From positions 313,001 through 377,000 of the forward strand of contig NZ_JAIWOU010000001.1 of assembly GCF_021295395.1 (NCBI RefSeq): a stretch of 64,000 bases of DNA, in the 5' to 3' direction. Source of the stretch: Komagataeibacter sp. FNDCR2 (GTDB taxonomy: Bacteria > Pseudomonadota > Alphaproteobacteria > Acetobacterales > Acetobacteraceae). The notes beneath the pieces were generated by a model, which saw nothing but the letters and a program-made list of their open reading frames with translations, was not told the DNA's origin and ran no database searches. Each line of letters starts with the position of its first letter. Within the stretch, counting starts at the first letter, position 1. The position numbers and the translations under genes are program-made. Below, piece by piece: positions 24,832 to 45,820 of the stretch.

Positions 24832-24873
24832 GCATGCAGGGAACTGGCGCCGCGTAAACCGGGATGACGCATA

Positions 24874-26466: not shown

Positions 26467-26846
26467 TAAGTGGCGCGCGCCATAAGAATAACGCCGGATA
26501 CGATTACAACCAGCCCCACGATCCGCATGGGATGGATCTGCTCCCCCAGGAAGGCGATGCCCGCCAGCACAGTCAGCACGATACCCAGCGCCACACAGGG
26601 GTAGGCCTGGGAGACATCAATGCGTGCCAGTACCAGAAGCCAGACGATGGCGCTGAGGCCAAACGCCACGAGACCCGCCACGACGGAAGGATTGAGCGCA
26701 ATGGCGAAGATGATCTGCCGCAGGTCCTCCCGCCCGGACAGGGCATTTTGCACGCGTGGCGCGGACATGCCGGTCTTGAGCAGGATCTGGGCTGATGAAG
26801 AAAGTAATACACTGACCAGAACGAGAACGATGGTCCCGAATTTCAT
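26466..26846 (-). CDS. Small DMT/SMR-type transporter, ArnE-like
   Basis: This 126-residue protein has four membrane helices. It starts MKFGTIVLVLVSVLLSSSAQ, then has QILLKTGMSAP, GLSAIVWLLVLARIDVSQAY and IAFLGEQIHPMRIVGLVVIV, the EamA half-size pattern shared by SMR pumps and the ArnE/ArnF flippase. Its start overlaps the stop of the upstream polytopic protein gene as ATGA. In this operon, with a UbiA-type prenyltransferase and two membrane enzymes, flipping a polyprenyl-phosphate sugar is more likely than drug efflux. That role is inferred from context. Confidence 0.75.
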   Translation of the reverse strand: MKFGTIVLVLVSVLLSSSAQILLKTGMSAPRVQNALSGREDLRQIIFAIALNPSVVAGLVAFGLSAIVWLLVLARIDVSQAYPCVALGIVLTVLAGIAFLGEQIHPMRIVGLVVIVSGVILMARAT

Positions 26847-28564: not shown

Positions 28565-28565
28565 C

Positions 28566-30005
28566 CTAGATCGCCGCAAGGACGACAAGGGTGGAAAACC
28601 CCACGGCAATCAGGCTGGTACGATCCCGTAGCGCCCAGATGACCGGGTCATCGTTCATCTGCCGCCGATGCGCCACCATGAGCGCGCGCGCCAGCAGGAA
28701 CAGAAGGATGGGCGGAAGTATCCATAAAATATAAGGACGCAAATATATTTCCCTGACTGCAGGAGAGGAAATATAAAGACAGAAAACCGTGACCGCGTTT
28801 GTGCCGCATGTGGCGGCCAGCGCGGCCAGGATGAAAAGATCATCCTTGCGATAGGCCCGCGAACTTGATTCCGGCAGGTTCCCGTCCAGACGGACCAGCA
28901 GTTCGGTATATCGCTTGATCAGCGCGAGAGAGGTGAACACGAACAGGGAAAACGCCAGCAGCCATTCCGACAGCACTATTCCCGTCGCGGTTCCCCCGCC
29001 CAGAAGCCGCGCGGTGTATAAAAGCGCAAGCCCCACGACATCACCAAGCATCTTGCGTTTGAGCCAGAAGGAATACCCCGTTGTCAGTGCCACATAACCC
29101 GCAAGGGTGAAGGAAAACAGCCATGGCAGAAACAGGCAGGCCATGACGGCGCATAACCCCAGTAACGGAATGGCCGCCAGCGCCGCATGAACCGACAGGG
29201 CGCCACTGGCCAGGGGGCGTTTCCTTTTGGAAGGGTGCTGCCGGTCATCGCCCAGATCCGCCAGATCGTTCAGCAGGTATATGGCCGATGCCGCCGCACA
29301 GAAAGCCGCAAAAGCCACGCAGCTTTCCACCATTGTATGAATACTGAAATCATGCGCGGCTAGTGCGGGCATGAAAACAAGTACATTCTTGGCATATTGA
29401 TGTACCCGCAGCGCCCGTCGCCATACTTTCAGCGACTGGCGGGGTTTTTCCATTATATCGACATTGCCGAATGTATTCAGGGTGCGCGACGATCTGGCGT
29501 CAAGACCGATCGCGTGGCAACGGTTGGCGTGACGCCAGATTGCCAGGTCGTCACGATGGTTGCCGACATAATCAAAACCCTTGTCGCCAAACCTGTCGAT
29601 CAGGACCTTCGCCTTGTTGGAGGCGGCAAGGTTGTGGTCCATATTGCTGGCGAACAGCCCGTCGAACCGGCCCAGATGGGCGGAAACGGCCTGGGCGAAA
29701 CGCTCGTTCGATGCGGTGGCGAGATAGACGGGCCGCCCCTGTGCCTTTGCCTCGTCAATCAGGCGCAGGACGGACTGGTGATAGGGCAGGGTGGCCACAT
29801 CCACCTGCGCGCGCGATGCCAGCACATCCTTCAGGCAGGCGCGTCCGCGAAAGAGCGAGAGCACGACAAGGGGCAGGCTGGCCGGAGCCCGACCGATGTA
29901 ACTGAAGAAGGATTCTATCAGAAGATCCGTTGCAATCAGGGTGCCGTCCAGATCAACGACAAGAGGATATGAGGGCTTTTCACCCGACAATGCTGCCAGT
30001 GCCAT
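28566..30005 (-). CDS. HAD phosphatase fused to UbiA-family prenyltransferase
   Basis: This 479-residue fusion has an N-terminal HAD phosphatase (DLDGTLIATD with nucleophile and acid Asp at residues 18 and 20, then YLATASNERFAQAV, and DYVGNHRDDLAIW). From about residue 200 a UbiA membrane domain follows, with NDLADLGDDRQHPSKRKRPL as the Asp-rich prenyl-diphosphate motif. Such UbiA proteins resemble the 5-phosphoribosyl-decaprenyl-phosphate synthase of arabinan synthesis, where a phosphatase removes the 5-phosphate; the fusion would do both steps. ATG at 30005 is chosen, with GAGG before it. No DprE1/DprE2 epimerase genes are seen here, so the final donor may be a ribose form. Confidence 0.85.
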   Translation of the reverse strand: MALAALSGEKPSYPLVVDLDGTLIATDLLIESFFSYIGRAPASLPLVVLSLFRGRACLKDVLASRAQVDVATLPYHQSVLRLIDEAKAQGRPVYLATASNERFAQAVSAHLGRFDGLFASNMDHNLAASNKAKVLIDRFGDKGFDYVGNHRDDLAIWRHANRCHAIGLDARSSRTLNTFGNVDIMEKPRQSLKVWRRALRVHQYAKNVLVFMPALAAHDFSIHTMVESCVAFAAFCAAASAIYLLNDLADLGDDRQHPSKRKRPLASGALSVHAALAAIPLLGLCAVMACLFLPWLFSFTLAGYVALTTGYSFWLKRKMLGDVVGLALLYTARLLGGGTATGIVLSEWLLAFSLFVFTSLALIKRYTELLVRLDGNLPESSSRAYRKDDLFILAALAATCGTNAVTVFCLYISSPAVREIYLRPYILWILPPILLFLLARALMVAHRRQMNDDPVIWALRDRTSLIAVGFSTLVVLAAI

Positions 30006-30180
30006 TTTCGCCTCAATACAGGTTGCTTTCAACGCAAGTATCGGAACCGTGGTAATGGCGCATGTCTTTGCCGCATGGGAACCGGGCCAGGCTGATAAAA
30101 GCGCCTGCCGTTGAACGGAGCAGTCCCCATGCGGTTGCTCTGCACCGTTACATATTTTTTGTCAGGAATAAGGCGATCAC

Positions 30181-31780: not shown

Positions 31781-32584
31781 ATGCAGCGGCTGACCCTCTT
31801 CGCGAAAGGTAATGTCGATGTTCATGACACACTGCATTCGTGCCGGATCGGCGGTGCATTACGCTGGAACGGTATCAGTGACGTTATCCGTAAAAACTAT
31901 TCCGGATTGACGGCGCGCGTACGTCACGAAACATGGACACGTTCGGACGCCCTGCTGGCGGCAACCGGATCCGTGCCCGATTCACTGGCCGCGCGCGATG
32001 TGCCGTTGGGCAGTTATCCGGCATCCAGCCAGTTCAGCGATGCCATATTCACCACCGCATCCGACGCGGTCATCCTGTCGATCCAGCCCGATGTGACATC
32101 CAGCATGTTGCGGCACCGCACGGAAGGTTATTACCTGTACGCTCCCGATATAGCGAACTGGCGTAGCGAGGACAGGGCATGGCTGCGGCAGGATTTTGAA
32201 ACACTGGGTCTGCTCACGCCGGAACAGTCAATGTCCAATCTGGCCGCCATTGTCGAGCGCCTGCGTGCGGTGAACGACGTGCCGGTACTGGTCTATAACC
32301 TGTCCTTTATTATGCCCGGTGACGTCGTTCACTGCCATATGGGGCTGGATGAGACCTATCCGACCCGAATTCGGCGTTTTAATCTCGCACTTGTGGAACT
32401 TTCACAAGAAATAGGCATCTCTATTATTGATGTGGATGCTGTTGTCGCGCGCCATGGAACGGACAGGCTCAAACTGGATACCGTTCACCTGACGCCCGAG
32501 GGTTATGAACAGGTAACATACGAAACAGCCCGCGTACTCGACGACATTGGCGTATTTGACAGTGTGAGGAACAGGGACCCATGA
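31781..32584 (+). CDS. SGNH-hydrolase-like protein A
   Basis: This 267-residue cytoplasmic-looking protein has a C-terminal SGNH block V, LDTVHLTPEGYEQ, with Asp233 and His236. It also has the ILSIQPDVTSSMLRHRTEGY and RIRRFNLALVELSQEIGISI segments. The N-terminal GDS-like position reads KGNVDVHDTL, so the usual nucleophilic Ser is not evident. SGNH proteins act as esterases or O-acyltransferases. Two other genes here (33627-34493, 36741-38123) share parts of this sequence. The start at 31781 is the first plausible ATG after a 205-base divergent gap. Its last four bases, ATGA, start the glycosyltransferase gene. Confidence 0.72.
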   Translation: MQRLTLFAKGNVDVHDTLHSCRIGGALRWNGISDVIRKNYSGLTARVRHETWTRSDALLAATGSVPDSLAARDVPLGSYPASSQFSDAIFTTASDAVILSIQPDVTSSMLRHRTEGYYLYAPDIANWRSEDRAWLRQDFETLGLLTPEQSMSNLAAIVERLRAVNDVPVLVYNLSFIMPGDVVHCHMGLDETYPTRIRRFNLALVELSQEIGISIIDVDAVVARHGTDRLKLDTVHLTPEGYEQVTYETARVLDDIGVFDSVRNRDP

Positions 32585-33630
32585 AAGCAAGTGTCATCAT
32601 CCGGTCCAGAAACGAGGCCGACCGCCTGCGGCTGACGCTGACATCGCTTGCCTGCCAGAGCGAAGGCGCGCAGGTGGTCGTGGTCAATGACGGCTCCACC
32701 GATCACACCATGGACGTGATCGGGGCGGCGGCGGGGGAGCTGGATATTGTCGCCATCCACCATGCCCGCGCGGCCGGGCGCTCCGCCGCCGCGAATGCCG
32801 GCGCGGCAGTGGCTGCGGGTGATATCCTGATCTTTCTGGATGGCGATACCCTGGCGGGCCCCGATCTGGTGGCGGAGCATCTGCAATCCCATGTACAGCA
32901 GGCGGGCGCGGTCGCGCGGGGGGAAAATTATCACCTGCGCTGCACCCGCCCGTTCCGCGATCCACAGACAGGCACCCCGCAACCGGGGGAAGAGGAACGG
33001 GTCGCACGCATGAGCCCCGGCGAACGTGCGCGCGCGGTCGTGACGCGCCAGCAGATCATGACGGATTTCGCCGCGATTGACCGGCGCGCCCAGCCGGGGG
33101 TCTATCCCGGTTACGGGCCGCGCAAGCTTTATGAACTGGAAATGGACGCCCTGCGCCACCAGGGGGATTGCGATGTGTTGTGGGCCGCCGCAGCGGGCGC
33201 GAACCAGTCGGTGCCCCGGCAGGCTTTTGTGGAATCCGGCGGGTTCCACCCGGATATCTCGATCAACGAACACCGCGAACTCGCGCTGCGGCTGTGTCAG
33301 GCCGGGCTTAGAATGGTGCCCTGCGCCGCGCGCAGTTACCACATGATCCATCGCAGCGGCTGGCGGGATCCGCTGGAAGACCAGGATTGGGAGGCCGTTT
33401 TCTATCAGGCTCATCCGCGTGTGGATGTGGCGCTGCTTCCCATATTATGGCGCAGCCTCAGTGATACGCACAGCGTGCAGGAGCATGCCCGCATCCTTTC
33501 CCTGCCGCAACTATCCGCAATCGCCACGCGTTACCGGACGCTCGATACACCCGATGCCGTGCGTGACGCGTATATGGCGGCAATGAATGTGCCGCCGTCA
33601 CACATCATGGATGAAGGAGTGCCCCGATGA
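32581..33630 (+). CDS. Family 2 glycosyltransferase of the lipoyl-linked cluster
   Basis: This 349-residue GT-A protein starts MKASVIIRSRNEADRLRLTL and has VVVVNDGSTDHTMDVIG, AAANAGAAVAAGDILIFLDG and the metal-binding DGDT at about residue 87. SGGFHPDISINEHRELALRL lies in the second half. A C-terminal part of about 70 residues is not explained by the catalytic fold. Both ends overlap neighbours by ATGA, so it is translationally coupled between SGNH-like proteins A and B. Its presence indicates that the cluster acts on a glycan or glycosylated carrier. Confidence 0.85.
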   Translation: MKASVIIRSRNEADRLRLTLTSLACQSEGAQVVVVNDGSTDHTMDVIGAAAGELDIVAIHHARAAGRSAAANAGAAVAAGDILIFLDGDTLAGPDLVAEHLQSHVQQAGAVARGENYHLRCTRPFRDPQTGTPQPGEEERVARMSPGERARAVVTRQQIMTDFAAIDRRAQPGVYPGYGPRKLYELEMDALRHQGDCDVLWAAAAGANQSVPRQAFVESGGFHPDISINEHRELALRLCQAGLRMVPCAARSYHMIHRSGWRDPLEDQDWEAVFYQAHPRVDVALLPILWRSLSDTHSVQEHARILSLPQLSAIATRYRTLDTPDAVRDAYMAAMNVPPSHIMDEGVPR

Positions 33631-34493
33631 CGCAGCTCCATATTGCCACCTTCACCACCGAAAACGAACTGCCGGCCCTGACCCGCATGCTGGCCCTGCT
33701 GGGCGAAAGGCTGGGGGCGGAAGGTGTGACCATGTCGCACCAGGCGGCGGCGGGGCATGACGCCCTGCTTGATATGCCCGAAGGCAGCGTGCGCGTTGTC
33801 TCGCTGGCCCATGAGCTGGCGAACGCGCATGTGCCATGGGCGGAAGCGGAACGCATGCTGGAACACAGATGCGCCGCGTTATGCGAGCGCGGCGATCCGG
33901 TCGTGATCATGACGGTATTCCGGCATGTGGATCTTCCCGGCGAGGATGATCATACCCGGAGCCACGCGCTGCGCGTGCGTATCCGCCGGCTGAACTTTCT
34001 GGCCACCGAACTATCCCGTCGCCATGGCGTGTTCGTGGCCGACCTGGACCGGATACTGGCCGATACGGGGGGCGTGCCCCTGCGCACGGATTACCGTCTT
34101 GGCGGTGATGCGGCGGTGGAGCTTGCTGCGCAGGGTCTGGCGCAGGTGGTCGTCAATAACGCGCTCGACGCCGTCATGCCGTTCGAGGCGCAGGAGCGCG
34201 TCATGGCCGCACTTCTGGCCGCGTGCCCGGTCCAGCGGCATGCGGCTGATGTCATGCCACAGGAAGTGATCAGCATGGGGCGCGGACGGCGGCGGCAGAT
34301 TGTCACCACCATTACCGACACAGTGGATGAAAACCATATGGCCACAATGATCAGGCGCGTGCTCAGGGGCGAGATCCCGCCACGGCAGGCATTTGAAAAA
34401 CTGGTCAGCGCGGTGCGTAAACGCGGGCTGCGTGACAGTATCGACGCCATCACGTCGGGCATGTTCCGCCTGCTGCGCGCGAGTGCTCCATGA
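33627..34493 (+). CDS. SGNH-like protein B, catalytic His not conserved
   Basis: This 288-residue protein aligns by eye with SGNH-like protein A over LRVRIRRLNFLATELSRRHG and VADLDRILADTGGVPLRTDY. Where A has Asp-x2-His (DTVHLT), B has TDYRLGG, so the His is lost. An Asn-x-Ser/Cys nucleophile motif is not obvious. A roughly 85-residue C-terminal extension (QERVMAALLAACP to the end) is rich in Arg and unlike A. It may be a non-catalytic partner or scaffold. Start and stop overlap neighbours by four bases each. Confidence 0.65.
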   Translation: MTQLHIATFTTENELPALTRMLALLGERLGAEGVTMSHQAAAGHDALLDMPEGSVRVVSLAHELANAHVPWAEAERMLEHRCAALCERGDPVVIMTVFRHVDLPGEDDHTRSHALRVRIRRLNFLATELSRRHGVFVADLDRILADTGGVPLRTDYRLGGDAAVELAAQGLAQVVVNNALDAVMPFEAQERVMAALLAACPVQRHAADVMPQEVISMGRGRRRQIVTTITDTVDENHMATMIRRVLRGEIPPRQAFEKLVSAVRKRGLRDSIDAITSGMFRLLRASAP

Positions 34494-35416
34494 CGCCGGT
34501 TGAGATGTTGCGCGGCATGATGCTGATCCGCGCGTTCGAGGATGCGCTGGCGCGGCGCCGGGATCATGGCTTCCAGCTCCTTTCCTCGGGTGAGGAAGCG
34601 GTGGCGGTGGGGCTGGCCTCGGCGCTGGAGGAAGGAGACCAGCTTCTGACAGGGGGGCGCTCCATCGGCCCGGCGCTGGCGCGCGGCGTCGCACCGGAGC
34701 GGCTGATGGCGGAACTGCTGGGCCGCACGGGGGGGATGAACCGGGGGCGCGCGGGGCGTGGCCACCTGTCGGATCCGGCGGCCGGTTTTTTTGGCGCGCA
34801 TGCCGTGGTGGGTGGGAATATCAGCATCGCCGCCGGGGTCGCGCTGGCGCGGCAGATGGACCATGACAGCGGGATCGTCGCCATCATGTTCGGCGATGGC
34901 GCGTGTGGGGAGGGCGCCCTGCATGAGACCCTGAACATGGCGGCGCTATGGAAACTGCCGCTGCTGTTCGTGTGCAACAACAACCAGCTTTCCGTTTCCA
35001 CCGCGCGCGCGGATGCGCTGGCGGTGGCGCGGCTGTCCGATCTGGGCGCGACATTCGGCATGTGGGCGCGCACGGTTGACGGGCTGGATGTGCGTGCGGT
35101 GGCGCAGGCCGCGGCGGAGGCGGTGCTTCATGTCCGCTCCGGTCTGGGGCCTGCGTTTTTGGAATGTGTTTCCATCCGCCTGCGTTCACATTCCACAACG
35201 GCGCGCGAAACGCGCAGCCGCGCCGAACTGGCCGAACTGCAGGCGCTGTGTCCCATCCGGCGCTATGTGTCCGTGCTGATGGAACGCGGCGATCTGGACG
35301 CAGCGCAACGCGATCACCTGTCGCTTGAGGCCACGATACGCGCGGAAGGCGCGCTGGGCAGTGCCGATGCCTCGCCCTATCCGGATGCACGGGAGGTCAT
35401 GCTTCATGTTGGATAA
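34490..35416 (+). CDS. TPP-dependent 2-oxoacid dehydrogenase E1 alpha subunit
   Basis: This 308-residue protein has the thiamine-diphosphate fold of pyruvate/acetoin/branched-chain dehydrogenase E1 alpha. The GDG...NN TPP-magnesium motif is FGDGACGEGALHETLNMAAL (from about residue 134) ending CNNNQLS at 162-168. IRLRSHSTTARE carries a conserved His234. E1 alpha decarboxylates a 2-oxoacid and, with E1 beta, transfers the acyl group to a lipoyl domain. It is shorter than typical PDH E1 alpha (about 320-370). The next gene encodes the beta subunit, overlapping it by 11 bases. The 2-oxoacid substrate is unknown; housekeeping PDH is normally encoded with E2 and E3, absent here. Confidence 0.9.
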   Translation: MTPVEMLRGMMLIRAFEDALARRRDHGFQLLSSGEEAVAVGLASALEEGDQLLTGGRSIGPALARGVAPERLMAELLGRTGGMNRGRAGRGHLSDPAAGFFGAHAVVGGNISIAAGVALARQMDHDSGIVAIMFGDGACGEGALHETLNMAALWKLPLLFVCNNNQLSVSTARADALAVARLSDLGATFGMWARTVDGLDVRAVAQAAAEAVLHVRSGLGPAFLECVSIRLRSHSTTARETRSRAELAELQALCPIRRYVSVLMERGDLDAAQRDHLSLEATIRAEGALGSADASPYPDAREVMLHVG

Positions 35417-36395
35417 ACCGGAAGTCAGCACCCAGCGCCTGTTCTTTCGCGAAGCCGTGACCCGGGCGGTGCGGGAGGAAATGACGCGCAACCACCATGT
35501 CATGGTCATGGGCCAGGATGTGGGGGCGTTTGGCGGGTCCTATCGTGAATTCGACGGGCTGTACAACCTGTTCGGCCCCGAACGCGTGCGCGATACCCCC
35601 GTGGCCGAGGCCGCGAGCATTGGTATCGCGGCTGGCGCGGCGGCGGCGGGATACCGCCCCATTGTCAGCATTACCTACATGGATTTCCTGATGCTGGGGT
35701 TCGACGCCCTGATAAATTACGCCGCCAAGCTGCGCTACAAAACGGCGGGACGCCTGACCGCGCCGCTTGTGGTCAAGACCACCGCCGGCGCGCAGGGGCA
35801 GGGGGTCGCGCATTCCCAATGTATTGAATCGTGGCTCATGAGCGTGCCGGGGCTGAAAATTGTCGCGCCCTCCACTCCGGCCGATGCGTATGGGCTGATG
35901 AAGTCCGCGCTGCGTGATGACGGGCCGGTGGTCTATATCGACCACAAGCGGCTTTTCCCCACGCCGGGCGAGGTCACGCTGGCCGAAGACCTGATCCCGT
36001 TCGGGAAGGCGAGCATCCGGCGCGAGGGCACGGACCTGACGCTGGTCACGCATGGCTACATGACGCGCGTGGCGCTACAGGCGGCCCAATCGCTTGAAAG
36101 CGAAGGGATATCATGTGAAGTGGTGGACCTGCGCAGTCTCGCGCCGCTGGATATCCATACCGTAACGGCATCCGTCAGCCGTACCGGGCGGCTCCTCACG
36201 CTGGAAGAAGGCCAGAGTGTCTGCGGCGTGGGCACGGAAGTCGCCTGCCAGACATTCGAGCGGATCGGCCCCCGGCCCTGGAAACGGCTGGGCGCGTTGC
36301 GGGCACCCGTTTCATCAAATCCTGTTCTGGAGGCCGCGTGCATTCCCGACGCCACGCGTGTGGCGGCCATGGCGCGCGCCGTTCTGGAACTGTGA
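35406..36395 (+). CDS. TPP-dependent 2-oxoacid dehydrogenase E1 beta subunit
   Basis: This 329-residue partner of the preceding gene has VMVMGQDVGAFGGSYREFDG, RVRDTPVAEAASIGIAAGAA and AQGQGVAHSQCIESWLMSVP, the conserved E1 beta segments; the Glu of AEAASIG lies where the TPP-activating Glu is found. The C-terminal transketolase domain has VTHGYMTRVALQAAQSLESE and LRSLAPLDIHTV. The start at 35406 (MLDKPEV) has GGAGG at about ten bases. It should form an alpha2-beta2 tetramer with E1 alpha. The lipoyl-domain gene begins 32 bases after its stop. Confidence 0.9.
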   Translation: MLDKPEVSTQRLFFREAVTRAVREEMTRNHHVMVMGQDVGAFGGSYREFDGLYNLFGPERVRDTPVAEAASIGIAAGAAAAGYRPIVSITYMDFLMLGFDALINYAAKLRYKTAGRLTAPLVVKTTAGAQGQGVAHSQCIESWLMSVPGLKIVAPSTPADAYGLMKSALRDDGPVVYIDHKRLFPTPGEVTLAEDLIPFGKASIRREGTDLTLVTHGYMTRVALQAAQSLESEGISCEVVDLRSLAPLDIHTVTASVSRTGRLLTLEEGQSVCGVGTEVACQTFERIGPRPWKRLGALRAPVSSNPVLEAACIPDATRVAAMARAVLEL

Positions 36396-36427
36396 ACCTA
36401 CCTTATCCCTGATATTTGGAGAAAGAC

Positions 36428-36733
36428 ATGATCTATCAGTTGTCGGTTCCTGCCGCGGTCCCTGGCGTTGAGGAAATCCGGATTCTGGAATGGCACGGTG
36501 AACCCGGCACGGCATTTGAGACCGGCGACCTGATTGTCGAACTGGAAACGCACAAGGCCGTCGTGGAAGTACGCGCCGGCCAGCCGGGCGTCCTGCGCGT
36601 GATCGACGCCCAACCGGGGGACTGGCTGGGGATCGGCCTGCGCCTGGCCCTGTTTACCGACACGGCGGACGAGGCCCTGCCCGAAGGCAGGGCGCCCGTT
36701 GCGGATATTCCCGTTGATTTCGCGGTGATCTGA
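36428..36733 (+). CDS. Free-standing lipoyl domain protein
   Basis: This 101-residue protein is a single lipoyl/biotinyl domain. The sequence LIVELETHKAVVEVRAGQPG contains the E-T-x-K-A lipoylation motif with Lys43, followed by GDWLGIGLRLALF. There is no peripheral-subunit-binding domain, linker or E2 acyltransferase core, all of which follow lipoyl domains in normal E2 proteins. It would accept an acyl group from the E1 pair and could hand it to another enzyme. GGAG lies before the ATG at 36428. A similar lipoyl-like gene on the other strand (38120-38491) lacks the lysine. Confidence 0.88.
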   Translation: MIYQLSVPAAVPGVEEIRILEWHGEPGTAFETGDLIVELETHKAVVEVRAGQPGVLRVIDAQPGDWLGIGLRLALFTDTADEALPEGRAPVADIPVDFAVI

Positions 36734-36740
36734 ACCGCGC

Positions 36741-38123
36741 CTACCCGGCGGCGCTGGCGGGTGCCCGCGCCGCCGCCCGCGTGGGCCGCAGGTCCGACAG
36801 GGCATGCAGGATTTCGTGGCGCAGTTCCATCTGCATGCGACCGCTCTGATGGATCCCATCAGGCAGGTGCAGCCCGCCGCCCAGTTCAGCTCCCAGCGCA
36901 TCGACATCAATAACGGCAAGGCCGCGCGTTTCGCTTATGTCGTGCAGCATCAGGTTCTGTTCCTTGGCCGCGATGTTCGACAGCGTAGCGCTCATGGGGG
37001 CATCGAACGCGGAATAGTTCGATATGTCTTCATAGCCGGATGTGGACATCCGGTTCAGGATCAGGATACGCCCGCCCGTCGTGCGCGCCAGCGTGTCGAT
37101 CAGCCTTTCATAATCGCGCCGGATGACATCGAGCGTCCGCCGCACGGGTTCGAACGCGCCGGACAGCCATGCCCGGATTGCTGGCCCCGCGCCCGCCAGA
37201 TGGTGGCGCATGATATGGACATGATAGCCAAGCGTACGATGGCGCAGGATGGATTGTGGTTCCACATTCAGCGACATCAGCACGGCATTGGCGGGCGGCA
37301 GCCGGTGCGTTCCCGTATCCGAGAAAATATCGAGCCGGTCCTTCAGGGGGGTATGGCGCAATACCGAAAGCAGCGTGCCCGCGAATATCCAGTCCTCCGC
37401 CGTGGGGTGACTGCCGGGGCGGCCGAGGAACTGGCGCAGGTCCTCCGCAATGGCGTTGAACTGCGCTGGCGTGCGTTCGAGCTGTTCCAGCAGGATCGGC
37501 GCGCACGGGGCCAGGGGGTGATCGGGCACGAACACGCATTGCGTTGCCGCCCGCGCGGCCTCGAACATGTCAAGGAAGCCGCATTTTTCACCCAGGATCA
37601 CACCCGTGGCGTCACACACGCCCATGCTCAGTAATGTCATCGGCAGTTCGTTATCCTCGCACCACCATCCCCGGCTGCGGCTGTACCAGCCCGAAAGCAG
37701 GCCCGTATGCACATCGGCCAGCCGTGTCATCCGGCGTCCCGCCACGACCATCAGGCGCAGCCGCCCGGCGTCGGGCATGTCGGGCGGGGTGTCCGGTGTG
37801 ATCCGGGCGGCCACGGTATCGGGATCCCATGCATCGATGGCGCGGGTGTTGAGATAGCCGCCACGCGCCATTTCCGGCTGGATGGCAAGCCGCCCGGCCA
37901 CGCGCGGGGCGAAGACGACCTGAATGTCCTGCTCCTCGGCGAAGGTGGGGGCGGAACTCAAGCGCGCGCCGCTGGGTTCGAGGCTTATGTTGCAATACCC
38001 GATGGGCTGGTTGGCGCGGCAGGGCTGGCCATCTTCCACCAGCCAGCGCACGCCGGAGCGTACGATGTTGTAACTGTCGGCCTTCAGTGGGCCGAAGCGC
38101 AGGGGAATGGCGTTCATGTTCAT
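36741..38123 (-). CDS. SGNH-like protein C with N-terminal barrel-like region
   Basis: This 460-residue protein shares SLNVEPQSILRHRTLGYHVH (residues 284-303) with protein A's QPDVTSSMLRHRTEGY, and ends with a block V-like LPDGIHQSGRM, where Asp422-x2-His425 is kept. Residues 20-100 (GVRWLVEDGQPCRANQPIGY, then SLEPSGARLSSA) look like a beta-rich, lipoyl-domain-like element, judged by eye. The middle contains several Cys (RGWWCEDN, MGVCDAT, EKCGFLD). The start at 38123 overlaps the stop of the lipoyl-like gene as ATGA, with GGAGG before it. It converges on the lipoyl gene with only seven bases between stops. Confidence 0.65.
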   Translation of the reverse strand: MNMNAIPLRFGPLKADSYNIVRSGVRWLVEDGQPCRANQPIGYCNISLEPSGARLSSAPTFAEEQDIQVVFAPRVAGRLAIQPEMARGGYLNTRAIDAWDPDTVAARITPDTPPDMPDAGRLRLMVVAGRRMTRLADVHTGLLSGWYSRSRGWWCEDNELPMTLLSMGVCDATGVILGEKCGFLDMFEAARAATQCVFVPDHPLAPCAPILLEQLERTPAQFNAIAEDLRQFLGRPGSHPTAEDWIFAGTLLSVLRHTPLKDRLDIFSDTGTHRLPPANAVLMSLNVEPQSILRHRTLGYHVHIMRHHLAGAGPAIRAWLSGAFEPVRRTLDVIRRDYERLIDTLARTTGGRILILNRMSTSGYEDISNYSAFDAPMSATLSNIAAKEQNLMLHDISETRGLAVIDVDALGAELGGGLHLPDGIHQSGRMQMELRHEILHALSDLRPTRAAARAPASAAG

Positions 38124-38491
38124 GCCAGGCATCCTCCGCTCCACATGGCTTCATGGTGGATGATCCCGGCCACGGTGCAGCGCACCTGACGCGCCACCGG
38201 TCCATCCAGCGTCTCGTCCGGGTCCGTGCTGAACAGGGCGATCTGTGTGCCCAGTGCATGGTGCTGTCCGGGTGTGGCGTCCATCTGGCGCAGATAGACT
38301 GCTTCGCGCAGCACCAGCCGGTAATAGGAAACCGGCGGGCATTCCTGTGCGAAGGCGCTGCTCAGATCCACGCTCAGATCCAGCAGTTTGGCGCCCGCGC
38401 GCAGCCTGTCGCCCATGGTGGCGTAAACGCATTCGATCGTTGCGCCCGACATCTGGGGCACGATTTCCGTAAGCCTGAATTCGTACAGCAT
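38120..38491 (-). CDS. Lipoyl-domain-like protein lacking the lipoylation lysine
   Basis: This 123-residue protein begins MLYEFRLTEIVPQMSGATIE, which resembles the opening of lipoyl domains, then has ATMGDRLRAGAKLLDLSVDL. Where the lipoylation Lys would stand (E-T-D-K-A), the sequence is VDLSSA, with Ser44/Ser45 and no Lys. The second half (TPGQHHALGTQIALFS) again looks like the barrel's closing strand. It may be a non-acylated structural or docking copy. AGGTGAG precedes the ATG at 38491. It is the middle gene of the leftward three-gene unit. Confidence 0.6.
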   Translation of the reverse strand: MLYEFRLTEIVPQMSGATIECVYATMGDRLRAGAKLLDLSVDLSSAFAQECPPVSYYRLVLREAVYLRQMDATPGQHHALGTQIALFSTDPDETLDGPVARQVRCTVAGIIHHEAMWSGGCLA

Positions 38492-38588
38492 TGTATTCTC
38501 ACCTGTATTTATGAAGTGGGTTACAAATACTGGCAACGCGATGTATGCGGGAATGTTGCAGGGCAAAATACAATCAGTAATATTTGTA

Positions 38589-39833
38589 TTATGTTTTTGC
38601 CATATATCTTATTGTTTCTTTTTCCACCCTGTTTTCCGTTTCGACGGTAACGTAATCCGTGTGCAGGGAATGCCCGTCCAGATCCACCAGGTCGATCTTC
38701 ACGGCCCGGCCTTCGGTGGTCTGCAGAACGCGCCAGCCCGGGGGGATGGGTATGCCAATCGGGCCGGTACAGGCACGGGGCAGGCACTGGCTGATGAGAC
38801 GGGCATCGACCCGACCGTAAAAATAGTCGCGCCAGTTCACGTCCTGCCCCCCGCGTGAGAGATCCCAGCTCATGAAGTCAAAGGGAAGCCAGCCACGTTC
38901 GTCCATGTGGATTTCGGCCCAGTAATGCATGGTGGGTGAGCGGGGATACAGAAAATTGCCGCTGACCAGCCGCGCCGGAATCCCCCGCGCCCGGCACAGG
39001 GCCACAAGAAACGCCGATGCCAGATGGCAGTCGCAGCACCCGCTGGCCAGAACCCAGTCCAGCGGTGCATTGGCGGGAATCTGGTCATAATGCACCGGAC
39101 CGGCCAGAAAGTTATCGAGAATGAAATCCCAGAACGCGCGCACCGCACCCGCGGGTGGCTGCGTTCCGGCCAGATGCCGGGACAGTGCCGCAACCGGGTC
39201 GGTAATGCGTATCAGTCCTTCCGCCGGTTTCAGGTAAAGCGCGGGATCCGGGGGGCTGTCCTCCATTACGACCGGCCGTGGAACAAAGCCGACCCGTGCG
39301 CCAAGCCATGCCTGCGCCCTGTCCGTGGCGCGGAGTTGAAGCTCCAGCCTGCCATCGGCCAGTGTGCAGGTTTCGCCCTCCGATGCAGGCAGGGGGTGGA
39401 TATCAAGTTCGCTACAGCGGCTGGCCAGTGGCAGGGGCATGCGCAGGCGCAGGGTCCGGCCCTGCGTGGCCCCGCGCAGGCAGAAGCGGCGGCGCAGGGT
39501 CACGTCCAGCCTGCCCGGTGGCCGGGCGCGCAGATCCTCCACCAGCCGACGGCTGGTTGTAACGTAATGGGCGGCCCAGAAACCGTCCTGCCCCATGCGC
39601 CCGGCGTTTTTCAGGTGGTACACAACCTCGACCGGGTCGAACAGGCGCGTGCCCTGTGCAGTCATGCGTACGCCCAAGCCGCCCTTTACCCAGTCCCCAA
39701 GCGCCTGGCGCGCCGTAGCGCGGATGGTATCCGTTGGTTCGAAAAAGGCCCAGCCCAGAAGCATGAGGGCGTCAAGGATGCGGGGCTCATCAATCGTGCG
39801 GTAGCGATCGTGAAACTGCGGGCCTGTCGGCAT
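38589..39833 (-). CDS. Transglutaminase-like cysteine protein
   Basis: This 414-residue protein has a transglutaminase-fold core: SGCCDCHLASAFLVALCRAR followed by GIPARLVSG, then MHYWAEIHMDERGWLPFDF. By spacing from GIPAR the catalytic residues are Cys269, His303 and Asp319. Residues 1-230 form a poorly recognised helical then beta-rich region. Proteins of this fold hydrolyse, transfer or crosslink amides and thioesters; a thioester-handling role would suit acyl-lipoyl chemistry. The start at 39833 has GGAG at eight bases; a longer frame would add 49 residues. It has no signal peptide, so it should act in the cytoplasm. It heads the leftward unit. Confidence 0.8.
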   Translation of the reverse strand: MPTGPQFHDRYRTIDEPRILDALMLLGWAFFEPTDTIRATARQALGDWVKGGLGVRMTAQGTRLFDPVEVVYHLKNAGRMGQDGFWAAHYVTTSRRLVEDLRARPPGRLDVTLRRRFCLRGATQGRTLRLRMPLPLASRCSELDIHPLPASEGETCTLADGRLELQLRATDRAQAWLGARVGFVPRPVVMEDSPPDPALYLKPAEGLIRITDPVAALSRHLAGTQPPAGAVRAFWDFILDNFLAGPVHYDQIPANAPLDWVLASGCCDCHLASAFLVALCRARGIPARLVSGNFLYPRSPTMHYWAEIHMDERGWLPFDFMSWDLSRGGQDVNWRDYFYGRVDARLISQCLPRACTGPIGIPIPPGWRVLQTTEGRAVKIDLVDLDGHSLHTDYVTVETENRVEKETIRYMAKT

Positions 39834-40098: not shown

Positions 40099-40704
40099 TC
40101 AGTCATGGCGGGAACGCATGGGCGAAATGACGATATCCGGCCAGTGCCTGTCATGGCCATCGGCCGGGAAGATGCGAATGCGCACGAGATCGGGCAACTG
40201 GTCCTCGCCCCATGATGCCTGCCACTGCCCACGGGCAAAGTAGCTGATTTCCATCCGCGACACCTTCGGCATGAGAACGGCCTGCCGGGGCGGCGGGCGC
40301 GGGGTAAGCGCGATGGCGTGCCGGTGTACAAGCCATGTCAGGACCAGATCGTTCCCCTCCAGTGAAAGCCGCAGGTCGGACAGGCGCTCCAGGGGGGAGG
40401 GCGCGATGCCCGCGGGCACATGGCCACGCAGGGCGAGGGCATGCGCCGTGCCTGTCAGGGTGCGCGTATCGTCCTGGCTGCCGGGTTCCGCTTCTTCGAT
40501 AAGGTGACGCAGCAACTGATCGGTTTGCGCCAGTTGGCCGCTGCTGGACAGTACGGCCTGCTGGCGCTGGAACAGGCTCAGGCCCGAGCGTGTCCCCTGT
40601 GTCAGGCCAGCCAGCAGGATGCCGAACACCACCAGCGCCACCAGCAGTTCCAGCAGCGTAAAACCGCCAGTGGGGCCGGAATGCTCGGGGGAGGGCCCGG
40701 TCAT
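40099..40704 (-). CDS. gspJ: Type II secretion minor pseudopilin GspJ
   Basis: This 201-residue minor pseudopilin has a prepilin leader ending in Gly before FTLLELLVALVVFGILLAGL, with Glu at mature position 5. The body LFQRQQAVLSSSGQLAQTDQ fits GspJ, which caps the pseudopilus with GspI and GspK. Its ATG overlaps the stop of gspI. It is the last gene of the leftward type II secretion arm, which probably exports levansucrase. Confidence 0.88.
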   Translation of the reverse strand: MTGPSPEHSGPTGGFTLLELLVALVVFGILLAGLTQGTRSGLSLFQRQQAVLSSSGQLAQTDQLLRHLIEEAEPGSQDDTRTLTGTAHALALRGHVPAGIAPSPLERLSDLRLSLEGNDLVLTWLVHRHAIALTPRPPPRQAVLMPKVSRMEISYFARGQWQASWGEDQLPDLVRIRIFPADGHDRHWPDIVISPMRSRHD

Positions 40705-41117
40705 GGCGCCGGTCCCGCCGTCGCCCCGATCCGTGCGGTGCGCAAGGTGAGCGCGCGGCGGTCGGGCGCATCGTCATCCTTTCCTTCCCCTGCCGTCGCG
40801 GACCACGATTCCGTAATTTCGATGGCATAGAGCGTCATACGCCCGTTGCTCTGGGTGGGGGTTATGCGCAACTGCCAGTAAAAGCCGCCGCCATCTTCCT
40901 CCCCTTGCGACAGGGGCCTTATGGCAAGGCCATGCCCGACCACGGCCAGATGGGACTGCGCGCGGGACAGGGCCTCCATGGACCGTTCGGCCACGCGCGT
41001 CGCGCGCCACCCGTCCACCCCGCTTTGCCACACGGCGGTAAGGGACAGGCCAGCGATGGCGAAGGCCACCATGACCTCCAGCAACGTGAAGCCTGAATCG
41101 CGTCGTCGGGCCGTCAT
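40701..41117 (-). CDS. gspI: Type II secretion minor pseudopilin GspI
   Basis: This 138-residue protein has a nine-residue leader before the prepilin cleavage (RRRDSG, then FTLLEVMVAFAIAGLSLTAV), Glu at position 5 and the short helix typical of GspI. GspI forms the pseudopilus tip with GspJ and GspK. It overlaps gspH and gspJ by four bases each, which implies coupled translation. Confidence 0.9.
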   Translation of the reverse strand: MTARRRDSGFTLLEVMVAFAIAGLSLTAVWQSGVDGWRATRVAERSMEALSRAQSHLAVVGHGLAIRPLSQGEEDGGGFYWQLRITPTQSNGRMTLYAIEITESWSATAGEGKDDDAPDRRALTLRTARIGATAGPAP

Positions 41118-41539
41118 GGGGTGATCTGCCGCGTGGTGACATGGCCGGTCAGCGCATCCACGGCAATCGCGATCCGCCCTGCCGTGGACCCCAGCACGAC
41201 CCTGCCGCCGGATGTGCTGCCATCGGGGTAGAAAATGGTTCTGGCCGGGGCGGCAATGGTTATGCCCGCCGGCAGGGCGGGGCGCGCGTGACCGTTCAGG
41301 CCATACTGCCCTGTGGGGAAGGCGGTGAACACAACGGCCCGTTCCGTGGTGGTCGCGCCCGTTCGCCCTTCACGCAGGGTGGCGGCGACCATTTCCGCCG
41401 CGACCCGCAGGTCCAGCGCGGAAGAGTGCAGCGGGCCACGTACGAGGATGAGTGAGGTCGCCAACCCGATCACCATAAGGACAATGATCATTTCCAGCAG
41501 GGTAAATCCGCCCGATCGGGCTGCTCTATTGCTGCGCAA
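41114..41539 (-). CDS. gspH: Type II secretion pseudopilin GspH
   Basis: This 141-residue protein carries a prepilin signal (SGG, then FTLLEMIIVLMVIGLATSLI) and a GspH-type body with RVAAEMVAATLREGRTGATT and GGRVVLGSTAGRIAIAVDAL. It joins the pseudopilus below the tip. Its first 14 bases overlap the end of gspF and its last four overlap gspI. Confidence 0.88.
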   Translation of the reverse strand: MRSNRAARSGGFTLLEMIIVLMVIGLATSLILVRGPLHSSALDLRVAAEMVAATLREGRTGATTTERAVVFTAFPTGQYGLNGHARPALPAGITIAAPARTIFYPDGSTSGGRVVLGSTAGRIAIAVDALTGHVTTRQITP

Positions 41540-42782
41540 GATCGTTCAGTCCAAGCATGGCGAGCAGGAGCGACGATACGATGCCCGCGATCATGGCCCC
41601 CATGAGGATGGTGATAAGCGGCACCAGCAATGCAACCAGCCGTTGCAGGCGCAGGCGAACCTGTTCTTCATGAATGGTCGCGGCCCGCAGGGCCAGCGGG
41701 CCAAGCTGCGCCGTGTCCTCCCCCAGACGTAGCAGATGGACGGTACGCGCCGGAAACAGGCCGCTTTCAGCCAATGTCAGGGAAAGCACGCCGCCATTGC
41801 GCGCGGTATCGGTCGCGCGCCCCACGGCCTGCCGGACGGCGCGATTGCCGATCACGTCATGCGCGATCGCCAGAGCGGCCAGCAGGGGCACGCCATTCAT
41901 CAGCAGCGTGCCGAGCGTACGGGTAAAATGGGCGGCCGTGATCTCCCGCGCCAGCGTTCCCATAACCGGCAGCCGCAGCCACATCCGGTCCGCCCATAAG
42001 CGTGGCCCCCGCCGCTTGAGAAGGAACCGGGCCAGCAGGACCATGCACAGCGCCCCGGCCAGCAGCACCGCGCCGTCATGTTCCAGCCAGTCACCCATCG
42101 CGATCAGCATTCGGGTCGAACGCGGCAGGGTTGCATTGTTTTCGGCAAACAGGGGCACGAACTGGGGCAGCACCTGCGTCAGCAGCAGCACGACCGAGCC
42201 AATGGCGGCCAGCATCAGCATGGCGGGATAGATCATGGCGGACTGGATGGTCGCGACCAGACCGCGCTCACGTTCCATCATGCCCGCCAGATGGTCCAGT
42301 GTGGCGGGCAGGCTCCCCCCCGCTTCCGCCGCCCGCACCAGCCCGGCATACAGGGGCGGGAAACTGCCGGGGTGATGAAGGAGTGCCGCATGCAGGCTGC
42401 GCCCGTCGCGCAGGGCGGCGCGCACACTGTCCATAACGGTCCTGACGCGCCGGTTCGGCGCGGTTTCGACCAGAAAACGCATGGCCCGGTCCAGATCCTG
42501 ACCGGCAGCCAGCATGACGGACAGCTCGCGCGTAAGATACGTCACATCCGTACGCCGCAGGTCACGGCCGCGCAAAGGCAGGTGGGCCATCAGCGCCAAA
42601 AAACGCGCCCGCCACCTGTCATGCCCGCCCCCGGCCTCGGCACGGACGGGCAGGTTGCCCTGATCGCGTATCCAGGCAATGGCCTCGTTCTGGCTAGTGG
42701 CGCTGACGGTGCCGTGTATGGTCTGGCCCGCGGGCGTGATGGCCGTAAAGTAAAACACCGCTGCGGAGGGCGCCTGCGCCAT
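41526..42782 (-). CDS. gspF: Type II secretion inner-membrane platform protein GspF
   Basis: This 418-residue protein has two GspF/PilC domains with three to four membrane helices. ELSVMLAAGQDLDRAMRFLV and SFPPLYAGLVRAAEAGGSLP lie in the first domain, ALAIAHDVIGNRAVRQAVG and FPARTVHLLRLGEDTAQLGP in the second. It couples the ATPase GspE to pseudopilus assembly in the inner membrane. The start overlaps the gspE stop by one base (TAATG). Length is normal. Confidence 0.93.
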   Translation of the reverse strand: MAQAPSAAVFYFTAITPAGQTIHGTVSATSQNEAIAWIRDQGNLPVRAEAGGGHDRWRARFLALMAHLPLRGRDLRRTDVTYLTRELSVMLAAGQDLDRAMRFLVETAPNRRVRTVMDSVRAALRDGRSLHAALLHHPGSFPPLYAGLVRAAEAGGSLPATLDHLAGMMERERGLVATIQSAMIYPAMLMLAAIGSVVLLLTQVLPQFVPLFAENNATLPRSTRMLIAMGDWLEHDGAVLLAGALCMVLLARFLLKRRGPRLWADRMWLRLPVMGTLAREITAAHFTRTLGTLLMNGVPLLAALAIAHDVIGNRAVRQAVGRATDTARNGGVLSLTLAESGLFPARTVHLLRLGEDTAQLGPLALRAATIHEEQVRLRLQRLVALLVPLITILMGAMIAGIVSSLLLAMLGLNDLAQQ

Positions 42783-44506
42783 TACGCGCCATCCGACCGG
42801 ATGCTGCGGGTGACTTCCTCGATCGTTGTGTGGCCCGCCAGCACCGCCTCAAGCCCGGCGTCGAACATCGGGACCATACCGGCATCGGTTGCCGCGCGCT
42901 CAATGGCGGCATGGTCGGCATGGGCGAAGACCAGCCGGGTGATCTCCTCATCCGGGGTCAGGAATTCGGCAATGGCAAGCCGCCCGGCATACCCGGTGGC
43001 CCGGCAATGGGGGCACCCCACCGGGTGGTACAGCATGATGGGGCGCAGGGCCGTGCGTTCTTCCAGCCCGAACCGCGTGATCAGTTCCCCCGGCGCGGGA
43101 TGCGCCACCCGGCAGTGCAGGCACAGGCGGCGCACCAGGCGCTGCGCCATCACACCGCGCAGCACGGCTGTCAGCAGGTAGTCTTCCACCCCCATGTCCC
43201 GCAGCCGCACGATGGCCGCGGCCGCCGAGTTCGTATGCAGGGTGGACAGGACCAGATGCCCCGTCAACGCCGCCTGCACCGAAATCTGTGCGGTTTCAAG
43301 GTCACGGATTTCGCCCACCATCACGATATCCGGATCCTGACGCAGGATGGCGCGCAGAAGGGTTGCGAAATTCAGCCCGATCTGGGGCTTGACCTGCACT
43401 TGGTTGATCCCGGCCAACTGGAATTCAATGGGGTCTTCAACCGTCACGACGTTACGATCGACCGTATTGAGTGTCAGCAGGGCGGAATAGAGTGTTGTCG
43501 TCTTGCCCGATCCCGTGGGACCGGTGACAAGGACGATGCCGTTGGGAAGCCGGAGGGTTTTCGTCAGCGCTGCGATCACGCCGGGGGCAAGCCCGAGCGC
43601 GGTGTAGTCGAACGTGACAGCCGAGCGGTCCAGCACGCGCAGCACCACCGTTTCCCCATGCAGGGAAGGGAGGGTCGAGACGCGAAAATCCACCTCCTGC
43701 CCCCGCACGGGCAGGCGGATGCGTCCATCCTGTGGCAGGCGGCGTTCGGCAATATCCAGCCGCGCCATGATCTTGATGCGCGAGATGATCGCCGCCGTCA
43801 GTTGGGCGGCGGGGCTTTCCGCTTCCTGCAACAGGCCGTCATTGCGGTAGCGGATGCGCAGCCGGTCCTCAAAGGGTTCGAGATGGATGTCCGAGGCCCG
43901 GCTTTCGACCGCGCGGAAAATGATCTGGTTGACCAGGCGGATAACCGGCGCTTCGGACGCCATGTCCCGCAGCCGTTCCGCGTCCTCCTCCAGCGCGCTA
44001 GCGCGATCCGGTTCCGCCGTCGGCTCCGTATCGGGGTAGAGGCGGTCGAAGGCGGCCTCGATTTCAACCGGAACGGCAACCGCCATATTGACCGCAAGGC
44101 CCGTGGCCGCTGTCATGGCGGCCCGGATAAAGGGGTCCAGTGGGTCGGTAAGGGCAAGTGTAAGGGTCGTATCCGTACAGGCCAGCGGCAGGGCGTGGGT
44201 ATCGCGCAGGAAGCGCATCGGCAGCCGGTCGGGCAGTACCGGCGTGGCGGGAAACTGGTCGGGCGTGACCAGCGGGATGCCAAGTAACGCGGCATAGGCT
44301 TCAGCCAGTGCGCGTTCGGAGACAAGGCCGAGGCGAAGCAGGGCGATGTCCGCCCGCCCGCCCATTTCCTCTGCCGCCCGCCGCCCGCGTTCCAGTGTGC
44401 GCGCATCGCACCGCCCGGTTTCATGCAACAGGTGTAGCAGGCGTTCCTCCACCAGCGGGACGACAAGGCTGCCCTCCGTCATGCTGGCGGGATGCGGCGC
44501 GCTCAT
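42782..44506 (-). CDS. gspE: Type II secretion ATPase GspE
   Basis: This 574-residue cytoplasmic ATPase drives pseudopilus assembly. An N-terminal GspE/PilB domain (about residues 20-150) precedes the ATPase: SRASDIHLEPFEDRLRIRYR, Walker A GPTGSGKTT near residue 330, the Asp box and Walker B DIVMVGEIRD near 395, and the His box STLHTNSA. A zinc-binding pair LCLHC and GCPHC follows. The ATG at 44506 overlaps the gspO stop as ATGA; a second ATG lies four codons upstream and a longer frame is antisense-like leader. Length is slightly above the usual 500. Confidence 0.92.
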   Translation of the reverse strand: MSAPHPASMTEGSLVVPLVEERLLHLLHETGRCDARTLERGRRAAEEMGGRADIALLRLGLVSERALAEAYAALLGIPLVTPDQFPATPVLPDRLPMRFLRDTHALPLACTDTTLTLALTDPLDPFIRAAMTAATGLAVNMAVAVPVEIEAAFDRLYPDTEPTAEPDRASALEEDAERLRDMASEAPVIRLVNQIIFRAVESRASDIHLEPFEDRLRIRYRNDGLLQEAESPAAQLTAAIISRIKIMARLDIAERRLPQDGRIRLPVRGQEVDFRVSTLPSLHGETVVLRVLDRSAVTFDYTALGLAPGVIAALTKTLRLPNGIVLVTGPTGSGKTTTLYSALLTLNTVDRNVVTVEDPIEFQLAGINQVQVKPQIGLNFATLLRAILRQDPDIVMVGEIRDLETAQISVQAALTGHLVLSTLHTNSAAAAIVRLRDMGVEDYLLTAVLRGVMAQRLVRRLCLHCRVAHPAPGELITRFGLEERTALRPIMLYHPVGCPHCRATGYAGRLAIAEFLTPDEEITRLVFAHADHAAIERAATDAGMVPMFDAGLEAVLAGHTTIEEVTRSIRSDGA

Positions 44507-45288
44507 GATGGGGCCCATGGGCCGGAATCCAGCAGGTACAGGACCCACAGCACCACACCCAGCCCCGGGCCGAAGGGAATGCGCAGCGTGCGTGCGGCAC
44601 CTGCGGCGGATGGCGCGATCAGGTAGGTGACGCCAGCGGCCAGCAGTGTCACGATGGCGGCCCCCGCAACCAGCACGGGCAACTGCGCGGATCCGATCCA
44701 CGCGCCAGCGGCGGCCAGAAGTTTCGCATCTCCCTGACCCAGCCCGTCATATCCCCGCAGGCTGCGATAGGCCCATGCCACCAGCCGGAAACCCGCGTAA
44801 CCCATCACGGCCGCCAGCGCATGGTCCACCAGTGCCGCGGGCTCCACCAGTTCGCATACCAGCAGTCCGCCCGGAACCAGTGGCAGTGTCAGCGCATCGG
44901 GCAGGCGCAGGGTGCGCAGGTCGATCCAGCCCAGCGCCAGCAGCGTCCAGCCCAGAATGCACCCGGCCCACAGGCGCGTCATATCGGGAGGCAATGGCGT
45001 ATGGCCCCGCAGGCCGATGACAGCCACCGCCACCATGAGCGCGCCCAGTTCCACGGCGGTATGAAAGAAGCCGATCGGGGCCTGGCAGGTCCGGCACCGG
45101 CCCCGCTGCATGCCGTAACTGAGCAGGGGCAGCAGTTCATGCGGCCCCAGTGTGACATTACAGGAATCGCAGGCCGAACGCCCGTGCAGGACGGGCCGCC
45201 GCTGGGGCAGCCGCATGATCAGTACGCCAGCGAACGAACCCATGAAAGGCGCGACCAGCAGGGGCAGCAGCAACATTTCATCCATCAT
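44503..45288 (-). CDS. gspO: Prepilin peptidase / N-methyltransferase
   Basis: This 261-residue polytopic protein cleaves and methylates the type II secretion pseudopilins. Two CxxC pairs (ACDSC, RCRTC) form the zinc-binding cytoplasmic domain. The aspartyl protease residues appear in LGWIDLRTLRLPDALTLPLV and GLGQGDAKLL. About seven to eight helices are present. The ATG at 45288 has AGGA at eight bases and follows the gspG stop by ten bases. It probably serves all five pseudopilins of this locus. Confidence 0.9.
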   Translation of the reverse strand: MMDEMLLLPLLVAPFMGSFAGVLIMRLPQRRPVLHGRSACDSCNVTLGPHELLPLLSYGMQRGRCRTCQAPIGFFHTAVELGALMVAVAVIGLRGHTPLPPDMTRLWAGCILGWTLLALGWIDLRTLRLPDALTLPLVPGGLLVCELVEPAALVDHALAAVMGYAGFRLVAWAYRSLRGYDGLGQGDAKLLAAAGAWIGSAQLPVLVAGAAIVTLLAAGVTYLIAPSAAGAARTLRIPFGPGLGVVLWVLYLLDSGPWAPS

Positions 45289-45298
45289 GCCGGGCGTC

Positions 45299-45790: not shown

Positions 45791-45820
45791 CGCGCGATTA
45801 TCCCCCCCACCGGAGGCATC

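Follow-up and report, generated by a model that had tools for sequence, protein, structure and literature searches.

The window analyzed here is a stretch of 64,000 nucleotides from Komagataeibacter sp. FNDCR2 (contig C1:313001-377000 of a 3.29-Mb genome), and positions below are those of the window unless a contig is given. At positions 31781-39833 (C1:344781-352833), it carries nine open reading frames (ORFs) that combine an E1 alpha/beta pair dependent on thiamine pyrophosphate (TPP), a free lipoyl protein, and a glycosyltransferase in what may be an undescribed acyl transfer system. All nine are present where a preliminary description of this DNA, made from the sequence, had placed them. 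They form two convergent groups, with A, GT2, B, E1alpha, E1beta, and Lip on the plus strand and TG, LipL, and C on the minus strand.

The plus-strand group begins with A (31781-32584; 267 amino acids [aa]), an SGNH-like protein (PF13472, 2e-8), followed by GT2 (32581-33630; 349 aa), a family 2 glycosyltransferase (PF00535, 9.9e-19) that recurs in the cluster loci of other genomes, and by B (33627-34493; 288 aa), a divergent SGNH-like paralogue of A recognized by its profile match to A. E1alpha (34490-35416; 308 aa) is of the TPP-dependent 2-oxoacid dehydrogenase type (PF00676, E1_dh, 1.3e-55), and E1beta (329 aa), which we read as starting at 35406 and ending at 36395, has transketolase pyrimidine and C domains (PF02779 and PF02780, 5.3e-37 and 4.8e-31). 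Lip (101 aa; start read at 36428, end at 36733) is a free single lipoyl-type domain with an ETHKA hairpin (PF00364, Biotin_lipoyl, 3.7e-9). On the minus strand, TG (38589-39833; start read at 39833) is a transglutaminase-fold protein with a Cys-His-Asp triad (PF01841, Transglut_core, 9.9e-17). LipL (38120-38491; start read at 38491) is lipoyl-like, with a loop containing Cys51 in place of the hairpin. C (36741-38123; start read at 38123) has an N-terminal part that is perhaps lipoyl-like, a middle part of unknown fold, and a C-terminal SGNH-like domain. Residue numbers of C refer to the ORF starting at 38144.

In a Pfam scan of the nine proteins, C and LipL had no match and B had only a sub-threshold one (0.089). 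B, C, and LipL were placed by profile alignment: B matched A at 97.4% over 74 columns, the C-terminal third of C matched A at 99.3% (hhalign), and LipL matched Lip at 97.0% (hhalign, E 1e-10). Together with the Pfam matches, these alignments bear out the parts list of the preliminary description, including its three SGNH-like proteins and its lipoyl-like protein. That description also had most genes joined by ATGA overlaps inside their operons. This applies to four of the seven within-group junctions (A/GT2, GT2/B, B/E1alpha, and LipL/C) but not to the other three: E1alpha and E1beta overlap by 11 bases, and there is no overlap between E1beta and Lip or between TG and LipL. Purifying selection acts on each of the nine genes, with dN/dS of 0.06-0.23 among three related loci (L033-L035).

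Recurrence of the gene set

Occurrence of the cluster genes was analyzed in 1,997 genome scans, with overlaps among the samples. A two-row profile of C gave 14 strong matches in 397 genomes of the host's family, and an independent profile of A identified the same 14 genomes. A Lip profile found cluster-type Lip in nine of 317 family genomes (131-182 bits), every one of which was C-positive. The remaining five C-positive family genomes were not among the rows of the Lip search and were presumably not in that sample. The 37 other genomes matching the Lip profile all scored at most 57.7 bits, leaving a gap below the cluster-type scores, and in all but one of them the match lay in an open frame of at least 367 aa, as expected of E2 proteins. 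One lipoyl-type match of 54 bits (G041:C93:18877-19131) lies in an open frame of just 166 aa and is perhaps a further free lipoyl protein.

Outside the family, one further strong C match was found among 385 genomes of the class, in a member of another family (G662), and at the phylum level the host's own genome was the sole match to the C profile (1/398). With the single C sequence as query, the own genome was again the sole match among 100 relatives, with none of the 18 listed genus fellows matching; the set is therefore patchy in its distribution. Two weak matches to the C profile, in G040 (5.5e-4) and G701 (8.1e-4), were excluded from the counts.

The neighborhoods of C were compared in 15 genomes, the own genome included, and all nine genes occur together in 12 of these 15 loci. 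Of the other three, those of G250 and G223 are interrupted by contig ends, with A of G250 on a separate contig, and that of G323 lacks the E1 pair and has a transposase gene inserted between C and Lip. The set of G292 is spread over two contigs, and the G301 copy of GT2 occupies two reading frames. Since the 15 loci were picked via C, linkage within them is conditional on C, and the searches with A and Lip serve as independent tests. E1alpha was searched for on its own account in the own genome, and TG and the E1 genes of other genomes were read at the loci chosen by C. Because the set was found in 14 other genomes and all nine of its genes are under purifying selection, it exceeds what chance would assemble. 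The idea of the preliminary description that these genes belong together is thus upheld by the C, A, and Lip searches and by the neighborhoods. The set is also small, and a version closely related to the window's cluster is present in a deposited strain, Gluconacetobacter johannae LMG 21312, which makes it directly testable.

Among plasmid records, C and LipL had no match, TG matched one record covering 23% of its length, and A matched one record, from Planktothrix, at 28% identity. For E1alpha, 344 plasmid records matched, each of them below 60% identity, with the best-ranked at 43.1%.

Conserved residues and the missing E2 and E3

The residues expected for loading of a lipoyl arm are retained in the cluster E1. 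E1alpha keeps the TPP motif GDGA...NN, its loop histidine His234 is present in 10 of the 10 rows that reach that position, and His135 of E1beta is invariant (13/13). In both trees, the cluster E1s formed a clade of their own (support 0.999 and 1.0) against the seven further E1s compared, of which two came from the own genome and five from plasmids. The window's E1alpha and E1beta also scored under the NCBIfam pyruvate dehydrogenase cut-offs (254.8 against 393.85 bits, and 301.2 against 321). In the E1alpha pocket, the cluster has L30, I59, and P61 where six of the seven other E1s have His, which suggests an unusual substrate pocket. Because these pocket-side histidines of most of the compared E1s are replaced, E1 may well act on something other than pyruvate. 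In five of the plasmid E1alpha neighborhoods, an E2 gene lies beside E1 in two and none is annotated in one; two records are unannotated there. The own genome encodes a further E1 alpha/beta pair (L003, C1:2948761-2949675) with no PF00198 E2 gene nearby.

The preliminary description reported neither an E2 acyltransferase core nor an E3 in the cluster and held that a dedicated partner nearby would mark an ordinary dehydrogenase. By Pfam, none of the nine cluster proteins has an E2 CAT core (PF00198) or an E3, and the own genome has no such partner near the cluster. Its two PF00198 E2 genes (C1:869323 and C1:2120691) both lie more than 500 kb away, and none of its three Pyr_redox_dim (E3-type) genes (C1:867930, 2122832, and 2626959) lies within 500 kb. 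The E2 gene at C1:869323 adjoins an E1 paralogue at 871992 and the E3-type gene at 867930, and that at C1:2120691 is accompanied by the E3-type gene at 2122832.

Lip has the ETHK hairpin in all 15 loci, with A as the next residue in 14 and V in G323. The hairpin lysine lies in a lipoylation context, and Lip is thus a predicted lipoyl carrier. In the profile alignment, LipL has a loop in place of the lipoyl hairpin, which it exceeds in length by about 15 residues. C51, P52, and P53 of this loop are invariant in the 12 aligned rows, and Cys-Pro-Pro also occurs in the other three loci, so that the Cys is kept in 15 of 15. When an alignment of 11 LipL sequences was compared with solved structures, lipoyl-bearing E2-type chains were matched at 0.12-0.55. 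LipL is a lipoyl homologue with a conserved Cys loop and no hairpin lysine. The Cys loop, the resemblance of LipL-C to an E2 in layout, and the pentofuranose-type cassette next to the cluster are absent from the preliminary description. The latter had called the protein lysine-less, which is right for the hairpin but not for the whole protein, since LipL has K35.

A serine in the GDS block is characteristic of SGNH hydrolases. This serine was found in none of the 11 A rows, none of the 12 B rows, and one of the 12 C rows, there at a column that is not shared. Near its N terminus, A has GN(V/T/L)D in all 12 rows reaching the position, with one row incomplete there. In the last SGNH block, A has H236 in 11 of 11 rows and D233 in 10 of 11, and C has both residues of its Asp-x-x-His (D429 and H432) in 12 of 12. 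In B, the His of this block is not kept. Serines are conserved at other places (S291 of C in 12/12, S100 of A in 10/11), and an alternative serine nucleophile in A or C is conceivable. With E up to 1 as the limit, PF13472 recognized all 11 aligned relatives of A and six of 12 C members (best, 1.3e-4). At the N terminus of C, one of 12 members matches PF13533 (Biotin_lipoyl_2) at E 0.005, and hhalign gave 5.8% to LipL and 2.6% to Lip. No solved relative of C was found up to E 1 with a 12-row profile, and A gave three chance-level matches, including a GDSL lipase at 0.75.

The A homologue on the Planktothrix agardhii plasmid (L032, 13651-15111) has an annotated methyltransferase as its fusion partner. 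It adjoins genes for an AMP-binding protein and an acyl carrier protein (ACP), and sulfotransferase and glycosyltransferase genes are on the same plasmid. This context hints that A-type proteins may work with carrier-bound acyl groups.

In TG, the triad C279, H313, and D329 (columns of alignment A8) is invariant (12/12). Two solved relatives of TG were found, one a protein-glutamine gamma-glutamyltransferase and the other a putative cysteine protease.

Proposed acyl transfer and alternatives

The established role of lipoate is chiefly that of a swinging arm in a small number of central complexes. The nine genes may encode one machine, apparently soluble, like a 2-oxoacid dehydrogenase complex minus its E2 core. 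We propose that E1 places an acyl group on Lip, that LipL and C replace E2, and that the acceptor is related to a glycan, and we judge the chances of this proposal to be about even. In a first step, E1 alpha/beta would use TPP to decarboxylate a 2-oxo acid or split a ketose phosphate and would acylate the lipoyl arm of Lip, as the intact motifs suggest. Acyl-Lip would then dock on LipL and C, which would jointly stand in for E2. Two routes are then conceivable: thioester formation between the acyl group and the conserved Cys of LipL, or direct transfer with Asp/His of C as the general base, in the manner of the E2 histidine. An ordinary E2 uses histidine as a base and forms no acyl-enzyme; an SGNH domain with Asp/His could therefore do likewise. 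Finally, GT2 would handle a glycan precursor whose sugar hydroxyl or amine receives the acyl group, A, B, and TG would be acceptor-side proteins, and a housekeeping E3 would reoxidize the dihydrolipoyl arm.

LipL and C are translationally coupled. The lipoyl-like protein comes first and the SGNH-like domain last, in place of the CAT core, and in layout this pair looks like an E2. The suggestion of the preliminary description, that the acyl group on the lipoyl lysine is passed on by an SGNH or transglutaminase-like enzyme, survives in part. The loading residues of E1 and Lip and the triad of TG are kept, but a plain SGNH acyl-enzyme route is weakened by the lack of a shared GDS. In the boldest form of the proposal, which we consider doubtful, the Cys loop of LipL together with C in the E2 position would relay the acyl group to a glycan precursor by way of a protein thioester. 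If true, this relay would be, to our knowledge, the first lipoate-dependent acylation of a glycan and the first use by a lipoyl-fold protein of a loop Cys instead of a lipoyl-lysine. If E1 and the lipoyl arm do serve an acceptor other than CoA, 2-oxo acids or ketoses would become a new origin of activated acyl groups, independent of acyl-CoA or ACP, and a lipoyl-fold protein with a conserved Cys and no lysine at the hairpin would gain a testable role.

Several observations count against this proposal. No gene of the set tells what the acceptor is. The Cys of LipL may be structural, and A, B, and C, without a conserved GDS serine and in B also without the His, may be binding proteins. The resemblance of the N terminus of C to lipoyl domains is weak, so this part is perhaps lipoyl-like and serves as a lead. 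AlphaFold2 models built on two-row alignments (the window and L004) had mean pLDDT of 39.5 for LipL and 33.1 for C. In G323, Lip adjoins B and the E1 pair is not between them, the rest of that genome not having been searched for the pair. Moreover, the polysaccharide locus that adjoins the cluster in the window is not its general setting, because the scanned neighbors are mixed at the more divergent clusters: sulfotransferases in L043, a hydroxylase and an amidohydrolase in L041, a Rieske-type protein in L053, and an HlyD-type protein in L045. In view of these mixed neighborhoods, a link to sugars is indicated more generally by GT2, which belongs to the set itself.

The nearest systems in logic are QncN/QncL/QncM and SclQ1-4. 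As described in PMC6335953, these take a glycolyl unit from a ketose phosphate and deliver the acyl group to an acceptor other than CoA; the E1-like part consists of two separate proteins, SclQ2 (305 aa) and SclQ3 (338 aa), a lipoyl arm is present, an acyltransferase catalytic domain is found in SclQ4/QncL, and the ACP is SclQ1/QncM. The cluster shares with them the E1 pair and the lipoyl domain, whereas its nine proteins have no Pfam match to an ACP or acyltransferase domain, its Lip is single-domain, and it adds LipL, three SGNH-like proteins, TG, and GT2. The 2-oxoacid dehydrogenase complexes, pyruvate dehydrogenase among them, have the same E1 alpha/beta families, TPP motifs, catalytic His, and lipoyl domain; in contrast to them, the cluster has no E2 CAT core or E3, has a free lipoyl protein, and has an E1 in its own clade. 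No paper on this gene set was found among the titles and abstracts listed for the openly licensed PMC literature. There is precedent for the chemistry up to acyl-lipoyl, and none was found in the same literature for the acceptor side.

The fully conserved triad of TG, set against SGNH-like proteins that share no GDS serine, would favor TG over C as the protein that transfers the lipoyl-borne acyl group to an amine. AdmF, a transglutaminase homologue, uses a carrier-bound acyl group in this way in andrimid synthesis, passing the acyl group to an amine. TG and the AdmF-type amide synthases would have in common the fold, the full triad, and a thioester carrier, which here would be lipoyl and not ACP. 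However, the gamma-glutamyltransferase and the putative cysteine protease among the solved relatives fit a transferase or a hydrolase, and a protease or deacylase role for TG is equally possible; we regard transfer by TG as rather unlikely. The E1 pair might instead add a TPP-bound two-carbon unit to a ketosugar to give a branched sugar, with the lipoyl protein as an accessory. Such two-carbon branching was proposed for the E1-like pairs AviB1/AviB2 in avilamycin and Pau11/Pau12 in paulomycin biosynthesis (PMC4425429), which share with the cluster a PDH E1-like pair (PDH, pyruvate dehydrogenase), and it would agree with GT2 in the set and with the polysaccharide locus next to it. A lipoyl protein is not needed for carbon-carbon addition, though, and the word "lipoyl" does not occur in the main text of the paulomycin paper (PMC4425429), while a free lipoyl protein with ETHK is found in 15 of 15 cluster loci. 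Branching of this kind is therefore an unlikely function of the set.

It is less likely still that E1 belongs to an ordinary 2-oxoacid dehydrogenase that borrows housekeeping E2 and E3 and that the other genes are unrelated, co-traveling glycan genes. E1 pairs apart from E2 do exist, such as the own-genome pair at C1:2948761, which is remote from the two PF00198 genes; E2 and E3 are available elsewhere in the genome; and the G323 set has no E1 at the usual place. Against this, A, C, and cluster-type Lip were confined to a shared group of genomes in the searches, several of the genes are translationally coupled, and the cluster has a dedicated lipoyl paralogue in LipL. Least probable of all, and very improbable in our view, is a role in sensing or regulation, with binding as the sole task of the SGNH-like proteins and LipL and no acyl transfer to glycans. 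The lack of a conserved GDS serine and the missing hairpin lysine of LipL would fit such a role, but no regulator or receptor family scored above cut-off among the nine proteins, and catalytic residues are conserved in E1, Lip, and TG.

Neighboring genes

Upstream of A on the opposite strand lie a GT87 gene and three genes (26466-30032) outside the core set of nine. The first of these (28566-30032, minus strand) encodes a HAD-UbiA fusion (PF01040, 3.7e-20; PF12710, 6.8e-9), probably a polyprenyl-phosphate ribose synthase with its phosphatase. The second (26843-28609, minus strand) encodes a candidate GT-C membrane glycosyltransferase, assigned from context because its DUF6798 match is sub-threshold and it is kept beside the HAD-UbiA gene. 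The third (26466-26846, minus strand) encodes a small EamA/SMR-type protein (PF00892, 6e-8; PF00893, 1e-6), a candidate lipid-sugar flippase. These three genes are a probable pentofuranose-adding cassette. Three-component pentofuranose addition combines a polyprenyl phosphoribose synthase, a flippase, and a GT-C, the flippase there being of the MATE type (PMC11127046). With clear HAD-UbiA and EamA/SMR matches and a candidate GT-C, the triple would correspond to this parts list except that its candidate flippase is SMR-type, and it is a neighbor of the nine genes in some genomes.

The HAD-UbiA gene lies beside the set in seven of the 15 loci, in one at only 39% identity, and the set also occurs without it in the DNA compared. 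EamA/SMR homologues are present in five other loci. At the Gluconacetobacter johannae locus (L004), the whole triple lies inside the cluster, between Lip and TG. The nine-gene set and the cassette are thus separable but may serve one glycan. The candidate membrane glycosyltransferase gene is duplicated in L037 and L038. A second small gene (225-271 aa) adjoins TG in L040, L042, L043, L046, and L053, where no HAD-UbiA gene was seen; it is GT2 in both loci that were scanned (L040 and L053).

Farther upstream, positions 8615-26355 hold a large exopolysaccharide-type locus with genes for a Wzx-like protein, an epimerase, an acyltransferase-3, a Wzz/kinase, an initiating sugar transferase, a BBP2_2 barrel, and an export protein. 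A glycosyltransferase gene also lies upstream in the window. Among the relatives scanned, glycosyltransferase, Polysacc_synt, or acyltransferase-3 genes lie beside the set in L033 and L035, and homologues of the Polysacc_synt gene lie near it in L036-L038. On the other side of the cluster, genes at 40099-48649 resemble a type II secretion or pilus assembly set, with prepilin-like N termini and PilN.

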